The notes below the pieces were generated by a model that saw only the letters and a list, made by a program, of their open reading frames with translations, had not been told where the DNA came from and searched no databases. Below, piece by piece: positions 2,033 to 14,823 of a stretch of DNA of 38,737 nt. Position 1 is the stretch's first letter. Every line of letters starts with the position of its first letter. The position numbers were made by a program, and so were the translations under genes. The stretch is from Deltaproteobacteria bacterium (lineage in GTDB: Bacteria > Desulfobacterota > JAJRXV01): contig JAJRXV010000153.1 in NCBI GenBank assembly GCA_024276115.1, forward strand, positions 1-38,737, written 5' to 3'.

Positions 2033-3460
2033 TTACTTACTGCTCAGTACTCCGCTATCTTTCAATGCGTAAATAGTTTCACTCCAAGACGCGACATACA
2101 AATAACCATTTGAGCCAATTACTGGCTGTGAAGTGACTATCCCTCTAGTTTCATAATTCCAACGTGGCTTTCCGTCCGCAGTGAACGAATAGACATTATT
2201 GTCATTTGCTCCAATATACACGTTGCCATTTTTGTCGATTACTGGTGCTGAGAGCACCATGTCGCCTAACTGCTTGTTCCACAACATTCCACCGTTAAGA
2301 GTTAACGCGTATACTGTGCTGTCGTTTGAACCGAAGTAAATACGACCATCTTCGCTGATTGCCGGCGATGAGTAAATCGATCCCTGAGTTTTGTGCGTCC
2401 AGTTTAGGGTGCCTTTTTTGCTAAGGCTGTAGAAAAATTCGTCTAAAGAGCCGAAGTAAATGTTTCCGCTCTTATCAATCGCAGGTGTTGAAATAATTTG
2501 GTCACCAGCCTCAAAAGTCCAGAGTTGTTTCCCAGACTTGTTAAGTGCGTAGAAAACATAGTCTTTTGAGCCGAAGTAGACGTTTCCGTCATCGTCGATT
2601 GCTGGTGATGAGTAGATTCCCGCCCCAGTCCTGAATTTCCATACCAGTTTTCCGTTCAGGTCTATTACGTGTAGATTTTTGTCATCGCTACCAAAGTATA
2701 TTCTACCGTCTTTTATCGTGCAGGGGGAGTTAATAAGACCCGCTGTTTTGTATGTCCACTTTAACTTACCCGCAGGGGAGAGTGCGTAGAATGTATTGTC
2801 ATTCGCTCCAAAGTATATAGTACCGTCATCTCCGACAGCTGGGACTGATCGAATAACTCCGTTAGTCTCGAAATACCATACTACTTTTCCATCTTTAATC
2901 GCATAGAGTTTTTTGTTTGTATTACCGGTGTAGATTGTACCGTCACCGGCGATAGCGCATGATGTGTATGATCCGTCAGTCTTGAGCTCCCAACTTAGCT
3001 TTGGATTGGTGGGGCCGTAAGAAGTACTTGTACCATTATGTTTTGGTCCCCCACGAAACATTTTCCACACGTATTGGGGGGCTTGAGGGGCTTTGGAGTG
3101 TACTGTCAGGTTTATAGTCGCCTTTTCAGTAAAAACGCCATCGTTGACTTTAAGAGTAATCACATATTTACCTTCTGCGTGCGGAGTCAATGTAGCTTTC
3201 ATGTTTTTGTGTGAATTGATTGTTGGTTTTGTTCCTGAAGGCGATTCGGTGACTTTCCAGCTGTATGTCAGAGAATCTCCCTCACTATCGTGACTCAATG
3301 AGGCGTCAAGTGTGGCTGTTTCTCCGAGACTGATTGACTGGTCAGTGCCGGCATTTGCTCTAGGAGGGGTATTCCCCACTTTTTTTTGCTTTTGGAGTAG
3401 TATTATCGCGCCTGCTACCAAGATGATGATTATAATAAAAGACAGTACTTTTTTTGACAT
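2033..3460 (-). CDS. PKD-like domain plus PQQ-repeat beta-propeller protein, membrane-anchored or secreted
   Basis: I prefer the ATG at 3460 to the GTG at 3475 of the ORF track, because the sequence AAGGAG that would be the ribosome binding site lies inside the longer version. The product starts with a hydrophobic N-terminal segment (VLSFIIIIILVAGAIILL), then a PKD/cadherin-like Ig domain (about 30-125; GTDQSISLGETATLDASLSH) and about eight PQQ-type propeller repeats of about 40 residues, each with variants of W.F.T.G.I.SSPAI...G.IYFGS.D...YAL. PQQ-like propellers of this type occur in BamB and in many exported sensors or binding scaffolds; no enzyme motif is visible, so I read it as a protein-protein or ligand-binding propeller facing the periplasm. 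The repeats cause periodic similarity in the DNA. It is probably transcribed separately from smpB, 91 bp upstream. Confidence 0.8.
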   Translation of the reverse strand: MSKKVLSFIIIIILVAGAIILLQKQKKVGNTPPRANAGTDQSISLGETATLDASLSHDSEGDSLTYSWKVTESPSGTKPTINSHKNMKATLTPHAEGKYVITLKVNDGVFTEKATINLTVHSKAPQAPQYVWKMFRGGPKHNGTSTSYGPTNPKLSWELKTDGSYTSCAIAGDGTIYTGNTNKKLYAIKDGKVVWYFETNGVIRSVPAVGDDGTIYFGANDNTFYALSPAGKLKWTYKTAGLINSPCTIKDGRIYFGSDDKNLHVIDLNGKLVWKFRTGAGIYSSPAIDDDGNVYFGSKDYVFYALNKSGKQLWTFEAGDQIISTPAIDKSGNIYFGSLDEFFYSLSKKGTLNWTHKTQGSIYSSPAISEDGRIYFGSNDSTVYALTLNGGMLWNKQLGDMVLSAPVIDKNGNVYIGANDNNVYSFTADGKPRWNYETRGIVTSQPVIGSNGYLYVASWSETIYALKDSGVLSSK

Positions 3461-3494
3461 GTATTTCTCCTTCACGCTGGACTAGTAAAAAAAA

Positions 3495-8129: not shown

Positions 8130-9242
8130 TTATCTCATATTAGGCCTGCTTGGGTCGAAATCGAGTAACGCTTCATGTATCTCGTTTGAAGGGCTTTTGT
8201 TGCCGGAGTTATCTTTTGATACTATCTTATAGAATAGCGTTAGCTTCCAGGAGGAATAAATAGATTTCCCCTTCTGGGTTTTCTTTAGATCTTCATCATA
8301 ATTATCGTTGAACCACGGCTCTTTGACTGTCGCGATCAGTTTGTATGGTCCCTTTGCTTTGCTGGCTCTCAGTATTTCGTACTCGTATGCTCTAGGAACC
8401 TCAGACCAAGCAATAAACATATAATAATGATAACCATATACTGCAAAGTCAACCCTCGCTGGTTGTTCCAACGTTTCATTACCCGTAAGGCTGATGTTAT
8501 ACTCCTCATTCCACCACGCACGCCACTTCGCGTGGTCATCACCGAAATCTTCCCGAGTGACTGTTCGCAGTATATCGACTATACGTACCTTCGCGTCACT
8601 ATCGACCTTTTCATCCCCGAGTAAGGTGATAAGCGGTTTTAACGCGGGCGTACCGAGCAGTTTAAGGTTCCACACCGTCGTGGTGCGGGTTATATCCTTT
8701 TGCGTTTCCCCGATTTTTAAATATGGCACATGGCAATAAGTGCAGTCAGCACCGAACTTAGCCCAAGGCGGTGTGACCCATCTAACAAGCTCATGTTTAA
8801 ATGTACCTGGTTTGAAGGAGGCAGTGAGAGGGGTTGTTAGAGCTTTCACCAGCCTGTAACGATTTGTGAGACTTTCAAAAGGCTTTTTGGGAGTCGCCTC
8901 ACGCTCTTGAGAGAAGTACTCTTCCCCATCTTTAGATATTAGTGAGAACTTATATAGCGCGGGCTTTTTCGGTGCGGGGAGAACGAACCACGGTTTGTTC
9001 GGATCTTCTAAGATGAGCTTACCATTCTCATAAAGCCTGAACGTCTTTGCTTGTTCGTACTGATTTATCTCTCCCCCCTTCTTTTTGAGAGGGTGGAGCC
9101 TGCCACCCATGACGAAGATATTTTTGCCGTCACGCATCGGGAACCCCGGCATGAACTCCGGGGTGTCTAAAGCTTTTGAGAAAAGTGGGAATAGTAATAT
9201 AAACGATGCTATACATAGAAACATATTGAAGTAACATCTCAT
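8130..9242 (-). CDS. Exported monoheme protein with C-terminal FnIII domain
   Basis: I do not know a named family. The 370-residue product has a signal peptide (about 1-25), a beta-rich N-terminal module containing PWFVLPAPKKPALYKFSL (about 83-102), one c-type heme motif CTYCH (C167, C170, H171), a HEAT-like segment ending in DFGDDHAKWRAWW, and a fibronectin type III-like domain (about 265-350; YEYEILRASKAKGPYKLI). The start ATG has GAGG seven bases upstream. The upstream gene encodes a paralog with the same modules in a different order. A single heme plus FnIII suggests a periplasmic or surface electron-transfer or binding protein; the function is not established. Confidence 0.75.
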   Translation of the reverse strand: MRCYFNMFLCIASFILLFPLFSKALDTPEFMPGFPMRDGKNIFVMGGRLHPLKKKGGEINQYEQAKTFRLYENGKLILEDPNKPWFVLPAPKKPALYKFSLISKDGEEYFSQEREATPKKPFESLTNRYRLVKALTTPLTASFKPGTFKHELVRWVTPPWAKFGADCTYCHVPYLKIGETQKDITRTTTVWNLKLLGTPALKPLITLLGDEKVDSDAKVRIVDILRTVTREDFGDDHAKWRAWWNEEYNISLTGNETLEQPARVDFAVYGYHYYMFIAWSEVPRAYEYEILRASKAKGPYKLIATVKEPWFNDNYDEDLKKTQKGKSIYSSWKLTLFYKIVSKDNSGNKSPSNEIHEALLDFDPSRPNMR

Positions 9243-9266
9243 TGATGACCTCGCTGTTGTTTATTT

Positions 9267-10331
9267 TTAATACCCTTGAGTTTTCCACCACTCCAGCCAC
9301 TTGTCGTAATCAGAGCCGAAGCTTTTGCCCGTAAGGACTTTTAGTAGCTTAAACAGCTCCGGTGGCGCGTCCTTCGTTTTACTCTTTGCCTTGACTACCT
9401 CCATCATCGGAGCGATCATCGGTTTACCGATCTGAGCGCCGGTCCATACTATCGCGTCGTGGATGCTTTTTGAGGAGCCTGATGAGTGGCATGGTGTACA
9501 TGAGACTTTTCCTCTCTTGTTACCCCAAGGCAGAGGGAACGCGGTCTTATCGATTTTTTGCCAGTGTTCAAATTTTGTTTTACTGCCATGAGGGTGACTC
9601 AGCGCCGCGATGAGTTCCTGGATGCGGTTCATCTGCCGCGCGGTATCATAATCATTGCGCCTGGGTCTAGGGAAGTGTTCTTTTGAGCGTGGGTACTCTT
9701 TATCATTTTTTATAACCGCGACAGAATATTTGAATACGTCGAGTTTTTTCGGAGCGGGGAGAATAAACCACGGTGTATGTTCCTTCCTAGCAATCAACTT
9801 ATCGTTTTCATAGATAAGGTACTCCTGCGCTCTAGCAACAGGTTTTACCATTATAAGCAGATTGTTCCCGGCTACCATCGGGAAGTCTTTTTCAAAATCA
9901 GTCATCGCTTTTTCTACTTTTTCGATGATGGGTCTTACAAATACTGTGTGGACCGCGCTATCTGGACTCGATTCATAGTTGACGGATTTAGCGACGATTT
10001 TATAGTAAAAGTACTTACCAGCGTCTTTATCTTCTTTTATGGCAGGATCTGTGAATGAGTTTTTCCCCTCTGATCCAACCAATGTGAAGTCCATTGCTAT
10101 ACCTTCAGCACGGTAAATATCATAGTAAGCGGCGCCTTTTGTTTTTCTCCATGACAAGTATAACGTACCTCTTTTGAACTCATGTCTGATCGATAGTGGT
10201 GCGGCTATCTCAACATAGTCATCTTCATCATCGTAGTAATCGTCCTGGCAATAAACAGTTGTAGCTAATAAAATGTAGATTAGAATCGTAATAGAAATAA
10301 AGACAGCTTTGAATCTGTTTCTTACTATCAT
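9267..10331 (-). CDS. Exported monoheme protein with N-terminal FnIII domain (paralog of the next gene)
   Basis: The ATG at 10331 is preferred over 10364 because it opens the signal peptide (MIVRNRFKAVFISITILIYI) and GGAGG lies inside the longer form, though the spacing (11 bases) is long. After an acidic linker (DDYYDDEDDY) comes an FnIII-like domain, then a module containing PWFILPAPKKLDVFKYSV, which nearly repeats that of the downstream gene, and near the C-terminus one heme motif CTPCH followed by SFGSDYDKWLEWW. So the FnIII unit is N-terminal here and C-terminal in its neighbour. The two genes are 24 bases apart and presumably cotranscribed from the promoter at 10370-10397. Function unknown; likely periplasmic redox pair (inference). 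Confidence 0.74.
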   Translation of the reverse strand: MIVRNRFKAVFISITILIYILLATTVYCQDDYYDDEDDYVEIAAPLSIRHEFKRGTLYLSWRKTKGAAYYDIYRAEGIAMDFTLVGSEGKNSFTDPAIKEDKDAGKYFYYKIVAKSVNYESSPDSAVHTVFVRPIIEKVEKAMTDFEKDFPMVAGNNLLIMVKPVARAQEYLIYENDKLIARKEHTPWFILPAPKKLDVFKYSVAVIKNDKEYPRSKEHFPRPRRNDYDTARQMNRIQELIAALSHPHGSKTKFEHWQKIDKTAFPLPWGNKRGKVSCTPCHSSGSSKSIHDAIVWTGAQIGKPMIAPMMEVVKAKSKTKDAPPELFKLLKVLTGKSFGSDYDKWLEWWKTQGY

Positions 10332-10369
10332 TATGCTTCTGTCCTCCAAAGTTAACATTACCATTAATT

Positions 10370-10397
10370 ATTATAATATAAATCATACAATTTTCAA
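10370..10397 (-). promoter_or_regulatory. Sigma70-type promoter for the two heme-protein genes
   Basis: TTGAAA (5/6) and TATAAT (6/6) are 16 bases apart on the minus strand, 38 bases upstream of the preferred start at 10331. Confidence 0.6.
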
Positions 10398-12998: not shown

Positions 12999-14126
12999 AT
13001 GCCTGATTCATTAAAAAAAATGACAATAAAAGGCTTTAAGTCCATCCGTTCGCTAGAAGACTTTGGGCTGACCAACCTGAATGTTCTCATTGGTGGCAAT
13101 GGCGCCGGTAAGAGTAATTTTGTAGATTTTTTCCGTATGTTGCGCGCTATGATGGGCATTGGTTCGTCCAGCGCCAGTCTAAAAGCTTATGTTGAAGTTG
13201 GCGGCGGTAGCTACGATTTGCTTTTTGGAGGTCCGAAGGTAACGAAGCAGATTGAAGTCGAAATGATGTTCGGCAATAACGGCTATCGCTTCAAACTTGC
13301 ACCTACCACTGAAGAATCCTTTCTCATTAATGATGAGGCCTGCTATTTTTATTATAGGTGCTACAACCCAACAGGTTGGGAGGAGATAGGTAGTGGACAT
13401 GCTACTACGCCTTACTTACTTGTAGAAAGGAGAACTAGTGGCTATGTTGGTAAACATAGTGTCGCATGGTACATTTATAATTCGATATCTTCATGGAAGA
13501 TATATCATTTTCACGATACAAGTAAGTTTGCTCCAATGCGAAGTTATGAAACAGTTGACGACGCTGATTACTTGCGGTTTGACGCGGCTAATATCGCCCC
13601 GTTTTTGCTTAACCTGAAAAAAAATCATTCGAATGTCTATGAGCAGATTGTTGATACGGTCAGACTGGTCACTCCATTTTTTGATGATTTTATTCTGAGG
13701 CCAAATGAGAATGAAAAAGTCCGACTTCTCTGGAAACAAAAAGGTTCTGATTATCCATTAAAGCCGAATCACTTATCAGATGGAACCATCCGCTTTATTT
13801 GCCTCACGACCGCGCTGTTGCAACCTGATCCGCCATCGACAATTATTATCGACGAGCCAGAGCTTGGGTTGCATCCTTACGCGATTGATATTCTAGCCGA
13901 ACTTATTCACGCGGCGTCAACAAAAATGCAGGTAATTGTTTCTACGCAGTCACCGGCGCTCGTCGATTGTTTTGAGCCTCAACATGTTATCGTCGCGAAC
14001 CGGAAGGATGGCGCGTCTGAATTTGAGCGCCTGAAGCCAAAAGATCTGGCATCATGGCTAGAAGATTATTCTCTCGGTGACCTCTGGCGTAAGAACATAG
14101 TCGGTGGAGGACCGGTTCATGAGTAA
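12999..14126 (+). CDS. AAA/ABC-type (AAA_21, RecF/SMC-like) ATPase
   Basis: The 375-residue protein opens MTIKGFKSIRSLEDF, then Walker A (IGGNGAGKSNFVDFF, about residues 31-45), an insert rich in aromatic residues, the ABC-signature-like LSDGTIRFICL, Walker B (IIIDEPELGLHPYAI) and the switch segment VIVSTQSPALVD. This is the OLD/RecF-like AAA_21 class without an attached nuclease. Its stop overlaps the start of the DUF4276 gene by eight bases, so the two products are made together and probably act as a complex. Such ATPase plus TOPRIM-like pairs occur in phage defence (for example PARIS and related), so a defence role is my inference; the specific system is not identified. GGTGAG precedes the ATG. 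Confidence 0.88.
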   Translation: MPDSLKKMTIKGFKSIRSLEDFGLTNLNVLIGGNGAGKSNFVDFFRMLRAMMGIGSSSASLKAYVEVGGGSYDLLFGGPKVTKQIEVEMMFGNNGYRFKLAPTTEESFLINDEACYFYYRCYNPTGWEEIGSGHATTPYLLVERRTSGYVGKHSVAWYIYNSISSWKIYHFHDTSKFAPMRSYETVDDADYLRFDAANIAPFLLNLKKNHSNVYEQIVDTVRLVTPFFDDFILRPNENEKVRLLWKQKGSDYPLKPNHLSDGTIRFICLTTALLQPDPPSTIIIDEPELGLHPYAIDILAELIHAASTKMQVIVSTQSPALVDCFEPQHVIVANRKDGASEFERLKPKDLASWLEDYSLGDLWRKNIVGGGPVHE

Positions 14127-14823
14127 TCCGGAAATTATTATCGTAGTTGAGGGACCCACCGAGCAGACTTTTGTACGTGATGTGCTCGCGCCGGAGATGG
14201 GTTGTCGAGGGATTTCTCTTAGCGCGGCTCGAATAGGCAAGCCCGGTCATAAAGGTGGTGATGTTCATTTTGAAAGAGCAAAAAATGATATACGTACGTT
14301 TCTAAAACAACGCGAAAATACTTATGTATCTACAATGTTTGATTACTTTAGAATTGATGTTTATTGGCCGGGGCGGAGTATTGTATGTCAACAGATAGAG
14401 AGTGGTATTACGCTTTCTGTAGAACAAAAAGCAAATATACTAGAATCGGCGACAAAGGAAAAAATTATAAAGTTATTCCCAGATTGCAACGCTGAAGAAA
14501 GATTTATCCCATACATTGAGATGCACGAGTTTGAAGCTCTGCTTTTTAGTGATACCAGTATTCTCGCAAAAAAAACGGGCATTGCTATAGCTGATATTGA
14601 AAAGATATTAGTGGAGTATGGCGACGATCCAGAAGCGATTAACGATGACCCTAAGAAAGCCCCGTCAAAGAGACTTGAAACATTAAAAAAAGGGTACAAA
14701 AAAATCATAACGGGGAAAACAGTATCTGAAGCGATTGGAATCCAAAATATACGTCAAAAATGTAGGCACTTTGATTCATGGCTGAAAAAGCTGGAAAATC
14801 TCACAGACGGCAGGTTGCGTTGA
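14119..14823 (+). CDS. DUF4276 (TOPRIM-like) partner of the ATPase
   Basis: The ATG at 14119 (MSNPEIIIVVEGPTEQTF) is chosen over 14104 because GGAGG lies eight bases upstream of it. The 234-residue protein fits DUF4276: IIIVVEGPTEQTFVRDVLAP at the N-terminus with the TOPRIM-like glutamate, TMFDYFRID around residue 75, and EMHEFEALLFSD about residue 140, acidic positions that could bind metal. The C-terminus is helical and basic. It overlaps the ATPase gene (ATGAGTAA). The family resembles OLD/TOPRIM nucleases, so the likely job is metal-dependent nucleic acid cleavage gated by the ATPase; that is inference. Confidence 0.85.
   Translation: MSNPEIIIVVEGPTEQTFVRDVLAPEMGCRGISLSAARIGKPGHKGGDVHFERAKNDIRTFLKQRENTYVSTMFDYFRIDVYWPGRSIVCQQIESGITLSVEQKANILESATKEKIIKLFPDCNAEERFIPYIEMHEFEALLFSDTSILAKKTGIAIADIEKILVEYGDDPEAINDDPKKAPSKRLETLKKGYKKIITGKTVSEAIGIQNIRQKCRHFDSWLKKLENLTDGRLR

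Follow-up and report, generated by a model that had tools for sequence, protein, structure and literature searches.

Two tandem genes of a deltaproteobacterial contig, here called A and B, are a real, lineage-restricted pair in which fibronectin type III (FnIII) domains have been rearranged, with a probable monoheme core in common. Known parts are varied here in a way specific to the lineage, and no new system is involved. The sequence-only reading of the 38.7-kb window (the whole stretch of DNA analysed, 38,737 nucleotides) had already noticed two tandem open reading frames, and both lie at the place and on the strand it gave, with a gap of 24 bp between them. The features of the locus are as follows.

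10370–10397, minus strand: promoter-like site TTGAAA-16-TATAAT, directly upstream of gene A (consensus match only)
9267–10364, minus strand: gene A, 365 aa; signal peptide, FnIII a, FnIII b, CxxCH segment, HEAT unit
9921–10220, minus strand: gene A FnIII a, residues 49–148, N-terminal (profile 3.5e-18; match in alignment A2 at 9936–10214, 1.3e-15)
9675–9905, minus strand: gene A FnIII b, residues 154–230, with FPM and PWFILPAPKK (profile 3.5e-14; A2 match at 9678–9899, 1e-11)
9486–9500, minus strand: gene A CTPCH, residues 289–293, predicted heme c attachment site
9276–9461, minus strand: gene A HEAT-like unit, ending SFGSDYDKWLEWW
8130–9242, minus strand: gene B, 370 aa; signal peptide, FnIII b, CxxCH segment, HEAT unit, FnIII a
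9171–9242, minus strand: gene B signal peptide, residues 1–24, N-terminal, type I as judged by eye
8907–9164, minus strand: gene B FnIII b, residues 27–112, with FPM and PWFVLPAPKK (profile 5e-9; FnIII by Foldseek)
8730–8744, minus strand: gene B CTYCH, residues 167–171, predicted heme c attachment site, aligned to CTPCH of gene A
8493–8693, minus strand: gene B HEAT-like unit, ending DFGDDHAKWRAWW
8157–8477, minus strand: gene B FnIII a, residues 256–362, C-terminal (profile 3.9e-14; A2 match at 8169–8471)

The likely start of gene A is Met12, an internal ATG at 10331 with GGAGG upstream, which we prefer over 10364, and the promoter-like consensus match suggests that A and B form a transcription unit separate from purMN. 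Both reading frames are intact, with ribosome-binding sites and with signal peptides that by eye appear to be of type I, having neither a lipobox nor an anchor. A and B are true paralogs: blastp aligns them over 230 columns at 27% identity (E=1e-22), and their score of 84.3 bits compares with a maximum of 25.4 bits in 200 shuffles of A, which excludes a lack of shared ancestry for the core. The motifs first noticed as common to the two, PWF[VI]LPAPKK, FG.D..KW..WW and one CxxCH per protein, are present in both, and many core residues are identical despite the low overall identity. No family was found for either protein in Pfam, NCBIfam or PADLOC.

Profile searches distinguish two types of FnIII domain, b, which holds the PWF motif, and a, the movable one, and they give the order a-b-CxxCH-HEAT in A and b-CxxCH-HEAT-a in B. 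PWF(V/I)LPAPKK had originally been taken for a module separate from FnIII, a view that has to be given up, as profiles, AlphaFold and Foldseek all place it in a second FnIII domain, b, so that there are two FnIII domains per protein. What A and B have in common is a core consisting of b, a helical CxxCH segment and one HEAT-like unit ending in FG.D..KW..WW, and since FPM, PWF[VI]LPAPKK, CxxCH and FG.D..KW..WW follow one another in the same aligned order in both, this core is unpermuted. The permuted FnIII order of the sequence-only reading thus survives in part: an FnIII domain other than b does lie at the N-terminal end in A and at the C-terminal end in B, but the order of the core is identical and only domain a switches side. 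The FnIII beta-sandwich fold of a and b is borne out by AlphaFold models and by Foldseek matches to FnIII pairs, with tandem FnIII structures aligning to A as a contiguous pair across about 210 columns and to B, across about 350, as two domains separated by the core. The pLDDT is mostly 75–95 for b and a of B and for a of A (about 88 across most of b of B, which has an insert of about 13 residues relative to A) and about 60–76 for b of A; the model of A was built from a four-row alignment only, because MAFFT had stacked b on a in an alignment that included a- and b-fragments, and that alignment was dropped. Pfam fn3 matched neither A nor B, and a sub-threshold GH85_C match in A was all that appeared.

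Each protein has one HEAT-like unit, which matches the endings of other HEAT proteins; Pfam HEAT profiles gave no match in A or B. The FG.D..KW..WW ending, initially noticed as shared by A and B, is no mark of this pair: in this genome and in its phylum it closes many unrelated HEAT-repeat proteins, and it is therefore better described as a HEAT cap than as a cytochrome feature. A and B, each with a single C-terminal unit that fits the ending TGxxFGxDxxKWxxWW of bacterial HEAT-repeat proteins, differ from those proteins, most of which contain numerous repeats and lack a CxxCH.

The case for heme centers on the CxxCH. It is no chance motif by composition, the expectation being 7e-4 and 2e-4 per mature protein; its cysteines are the only ones conserved between the mature proteins, and the motif, including its histidine, is aligned between them. 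Both A (CTPCH) and B (CTYCH) combine, as c-type cytochromes do, a CxxCH with export (signal peptides judged by eye), and the genome encodes cytochrome c assembly machinery (Cytochrom_C_asm, PF01578; six above-cut-off matches in five open frames). From these two diverged paralogs, with their signal peptides and no other conserved cysteines, in a genome with assembly genes, it is likely that A and B are monoheme proteins as predicted. The secondary structure of the core is parallel in the two models, with helices at 102–117, 124–131, 157–184, 191–205 and 213–224 in B, where residue 1 is the mature start, and at 198–217, 223–233, 271–289, 296–307 and 315–325 in A, and the CxxCH segment is modelled as helical in both at a pLDDT below 50. 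A candidate distal histidine, B150 or A267 (FxH), is aligned by blastp and not by MAFFT, in two paralogs only. As there is no Met in B between residues 46 and 274, the distal ligand would probably be His150 if the heme is six-coordinate, and to name His150 of B, with His267 as its counterpart in A in the blastp alignment, is a guess.

No convincing match to a PDB cytochrome was found for A or B, and no cytochrome family in Pfam or NCBIfam. Weak matches of the core to nitrite reductase were judged to be chance. The sister genome of the class (G022) and 395 phylum genomes yielded no homologs of the CxxCH core beyond A and B; there were only b-domain and HEAT matches and weak ones judged to be chance, so that conservation of the CxxCH rests on two sequences; in this pair, the homologs on which it could be examined, it is conserved. 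The description of A and B as monoheme proteins is thus upheld by the CxxCH, the signal peptides and the assembly genes, and is tempered by a core whose homologs are the two paralogs only and whose model is of low confidence.

The significance of the domain order becomes apparent from the other proteins that contain both a and b. The order is b-a in all 24 of the other distinct proteins (30 open frames when A and B are set aside, from the same genome and the phylum; of the 31 b-a rows in the table, one is gene B and six are the same gene repeated from overlapping loci). Gene A is the only a-b case among the a+b proteins examined, and gene B keeps the b-a order with the core inserted between the domains; the earlier proposal of domain shuffling within one locus is supported by this evidence. 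Most relatives are b-a-beta-propeller proteins, and 19 of the 24 distinct a+b loci have a cytochrome gene with 8–14 CxxCH motifs no more than 300 bp away and in the same orientation; the exceptions are C43, C193, one gene of L091, L097 (at a distance of 1.3 kb) and L073 (at a contig edge). Many phylum genomes show this pairing of b-a propeller and multiheme cytochrome. A b-a alignment matches 68 of 395 phylum genomes at E<=0.001, many of them via generic FnIII; in the named genomes its sole match is the propeller protein of the sister genome, and gene B as a query found nothing there.

Within the source genome, b-a stands alone in C193, before a propeller in C118 and before a VWA-like region in C43. 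In C118 (locus L025, 7601–11726) the b-a FnIII propeller gene is followed by a 12-CxxCH cytochrome on the same strand, and in the sister genome (L027, G022:C85, record JAJRZU010000012.1, 3235–8314) a b-a-propeller gene is followed by a 14-CxxCH cytochrome and then a TlpA-like gene, again on one strand. The C43 gene (L023, 1326–3497, minus strand) is a 724-aa open frame in which the b-a FnIII pair is fused to a VWA-like domain, and the small exported protein encoded in C64 (L024, 7245–7886, plus strand) contains two stretches of FnIII type a.

Neither A nor B has a propeller, and the window contains no multiheme gene; indeed, it has no other CxxCH gene at all, and no neighboring cytochrome or other redox partner was found at the locus. 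Together with signal peptides that look like type I and have no lipobox or anchor, this leaves the "surface" and "diversified redox system" of the sequence-only reading unsupported, and to speak of a surface redox system goes beyond the evidence. The window does encode a PKD domain followed by a PQQ/BamB-like beta-propeller (2033–3475, minus strand) and a candidate anti-phage defence pair, an AAA_21 ATPase (12999–14126, plus strand) overlapped by a DUF4276 protein (14104–14823, plus strand), whose best PADLOC matches are HEC-01A (3e-141) and HEC-01B (2e-68).

How did the rearrangement arise? The class of the source genome comprises two genomes in the collection searched, the source and its sister G022, and in the latter purM-purN is conserved (72% and 66%) and followed by a different gene, A and B being absent. 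As purM-purN is kept there without the pair, A-B was either gained in the source lineage or lost in the other. A single insertion, placing the core between b and a, accounts for the order in B; that in A takes a second event, which could be a permutation following the tandem duplication or a fusion with another a domain. A route without any permutation, compatible with the functional readings considered below and to which we assign a little less than an even chance, is that an ancestral b-CxxCH-HEAT gene was duplicated and each copy fused to an a domain from a different family member. The b domains of A and B are clearly sisters (98/88 support), branching beside C193, whereas the a domains are only 22% identical by blastp and pair weakly, and within the genome the best match of A's domain a is C193 and that of B's is C64. 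Against independent acquisition, both a domains score with the a profile and not with b, and joining them in the tree costs just 0.56 log units (AU p=0.46). Their sisterhood is thus neither supported nor rejected, and the data choose neither route.

From these parts we infer heme attachment, electron transfer, a docking role, partnership with multiheme cytochromes and a route of rearrangement. Our working proposal, which we rate at about an even chance, is that A and B are exported c-type monoheme electron carriers with FnIII docking arms, their core having been joined to the phylum-wide b-a cassette. The source of the parts would be the cassette that otherwise makes up the N-terminal part of beta-propeller proteins with multiheme cytochrome genes as neighbors, and behind its domain b a small helical CxxCH segment and one HEAT unit may have been joined. 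The products would be periplasmic or secreted, their two FnIII domains might be arms for docking or spacing, and the one heme could pass electrons from an upstream periplasmic donor to a partner such as a multiheme cytochrome/propeller complex. With domain a at the opposite end in A after tandem duplication, the same redox core would present an arm on different sides. Docking to the multiheme/propeller apparatus is suggested by the shared domains only. It is tempting to speculate further that, as lineage-specific monoheme carriers plugging into that apparatus in opposite orientations via the shared cassette, one is a donor-side and the other an acceptor-side adaptor, but this we regard as a long shot.

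The same exported proteins could be read without electron transfer. If the CxxCH is no heme site, A and B might be FnIII/HEAT scaffold or adhesion proteins with the cysteines as a disulfide or metal holder, as would fit the lack of cytochrome family or PDB cytochrome matches above noise, the low confidence of the core in AlphaFold, and b-a relatives that have no CxxCH and look structural, among them C43 with its VWA-like domain. Yet a CxxCH whose histidine is also aligned in two paralogs at 27% identity, in exported proteins of a genome with cytochrome-c assembly genes, speaks against this reading, and we consider it rather unlikely. Still less probable, in our estimate, is that the two genes, specific to this lineage, were acquired recently or are in decay and persist as exported FnIII proteins with no electron-transfer role: they are absent from the only sister genome, which has a different gene after purM-purN, and from all other genomes examined, but intact frames, signal peptides, ribosome-binding sites and many identical core residues at such low identity speak against it.

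In this one tandem locus an FnIII pair of otherwise invariant order, tied phylum-wide to multiheme cytochrome genes, is split up and reordered about a new, probable redox core. Should the heme prove real, this would be a small testable case of docking modules being put to further use in connecting new carriers to a chain of electron transfer. A more general by-product is that, in deltaproteobacterial lineages with poor sampling, the b-a FnIII cassette marks propeller proteins whose genes neighbor those of multiheme cytochromes.

Literature searches on the combination of FnIII, CxxCH and HEAT and on its permutation found nothing on the A/B family, and the closest comparisons are with its parts. 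The NHL-like b-a FnIII beta-propeller proteins of the same phylum are likewise exported, with a and b domains homologous to those of A and B; unlike them, A and B lack a propeller, have one CxxCH and one HEAT unit of their own, and are encoded at a distance from any multiheme cytochrome. The b-a propeller clusters themselves can be likened, by description and not by sequence, to the SEEP-SRB1 operon that encodes a six-bladed beta-propeller, multiheme cytochromes and a prolyl isomerase (Skennerton et al., 2017; PMC5539420). Also by description, Cbp2D of Cellvibrio japonicus (PMC8981238), an exported protein with FN3 and the single-CxxCH domains X183 and X132, resembles A and B in its working as a modular exported protein in which FnIII is joined to single-CxxCH cytochrome domains, but it has CBM and YceI-like domains, another order and no HEAT unit. 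OetF, a cytochrome with fibronectin domains from syntrophic sulfate reducers, described as a likely component of a conduit for extracellular electron transfer (PMC10553843), is similar, again by description, in uniting a fibronectin domain and c-type heme (predicted in A and B) in one Desulfobacterota protein; OetF is ascribed to such a conduit, whereas A and B have one CxxCH each.
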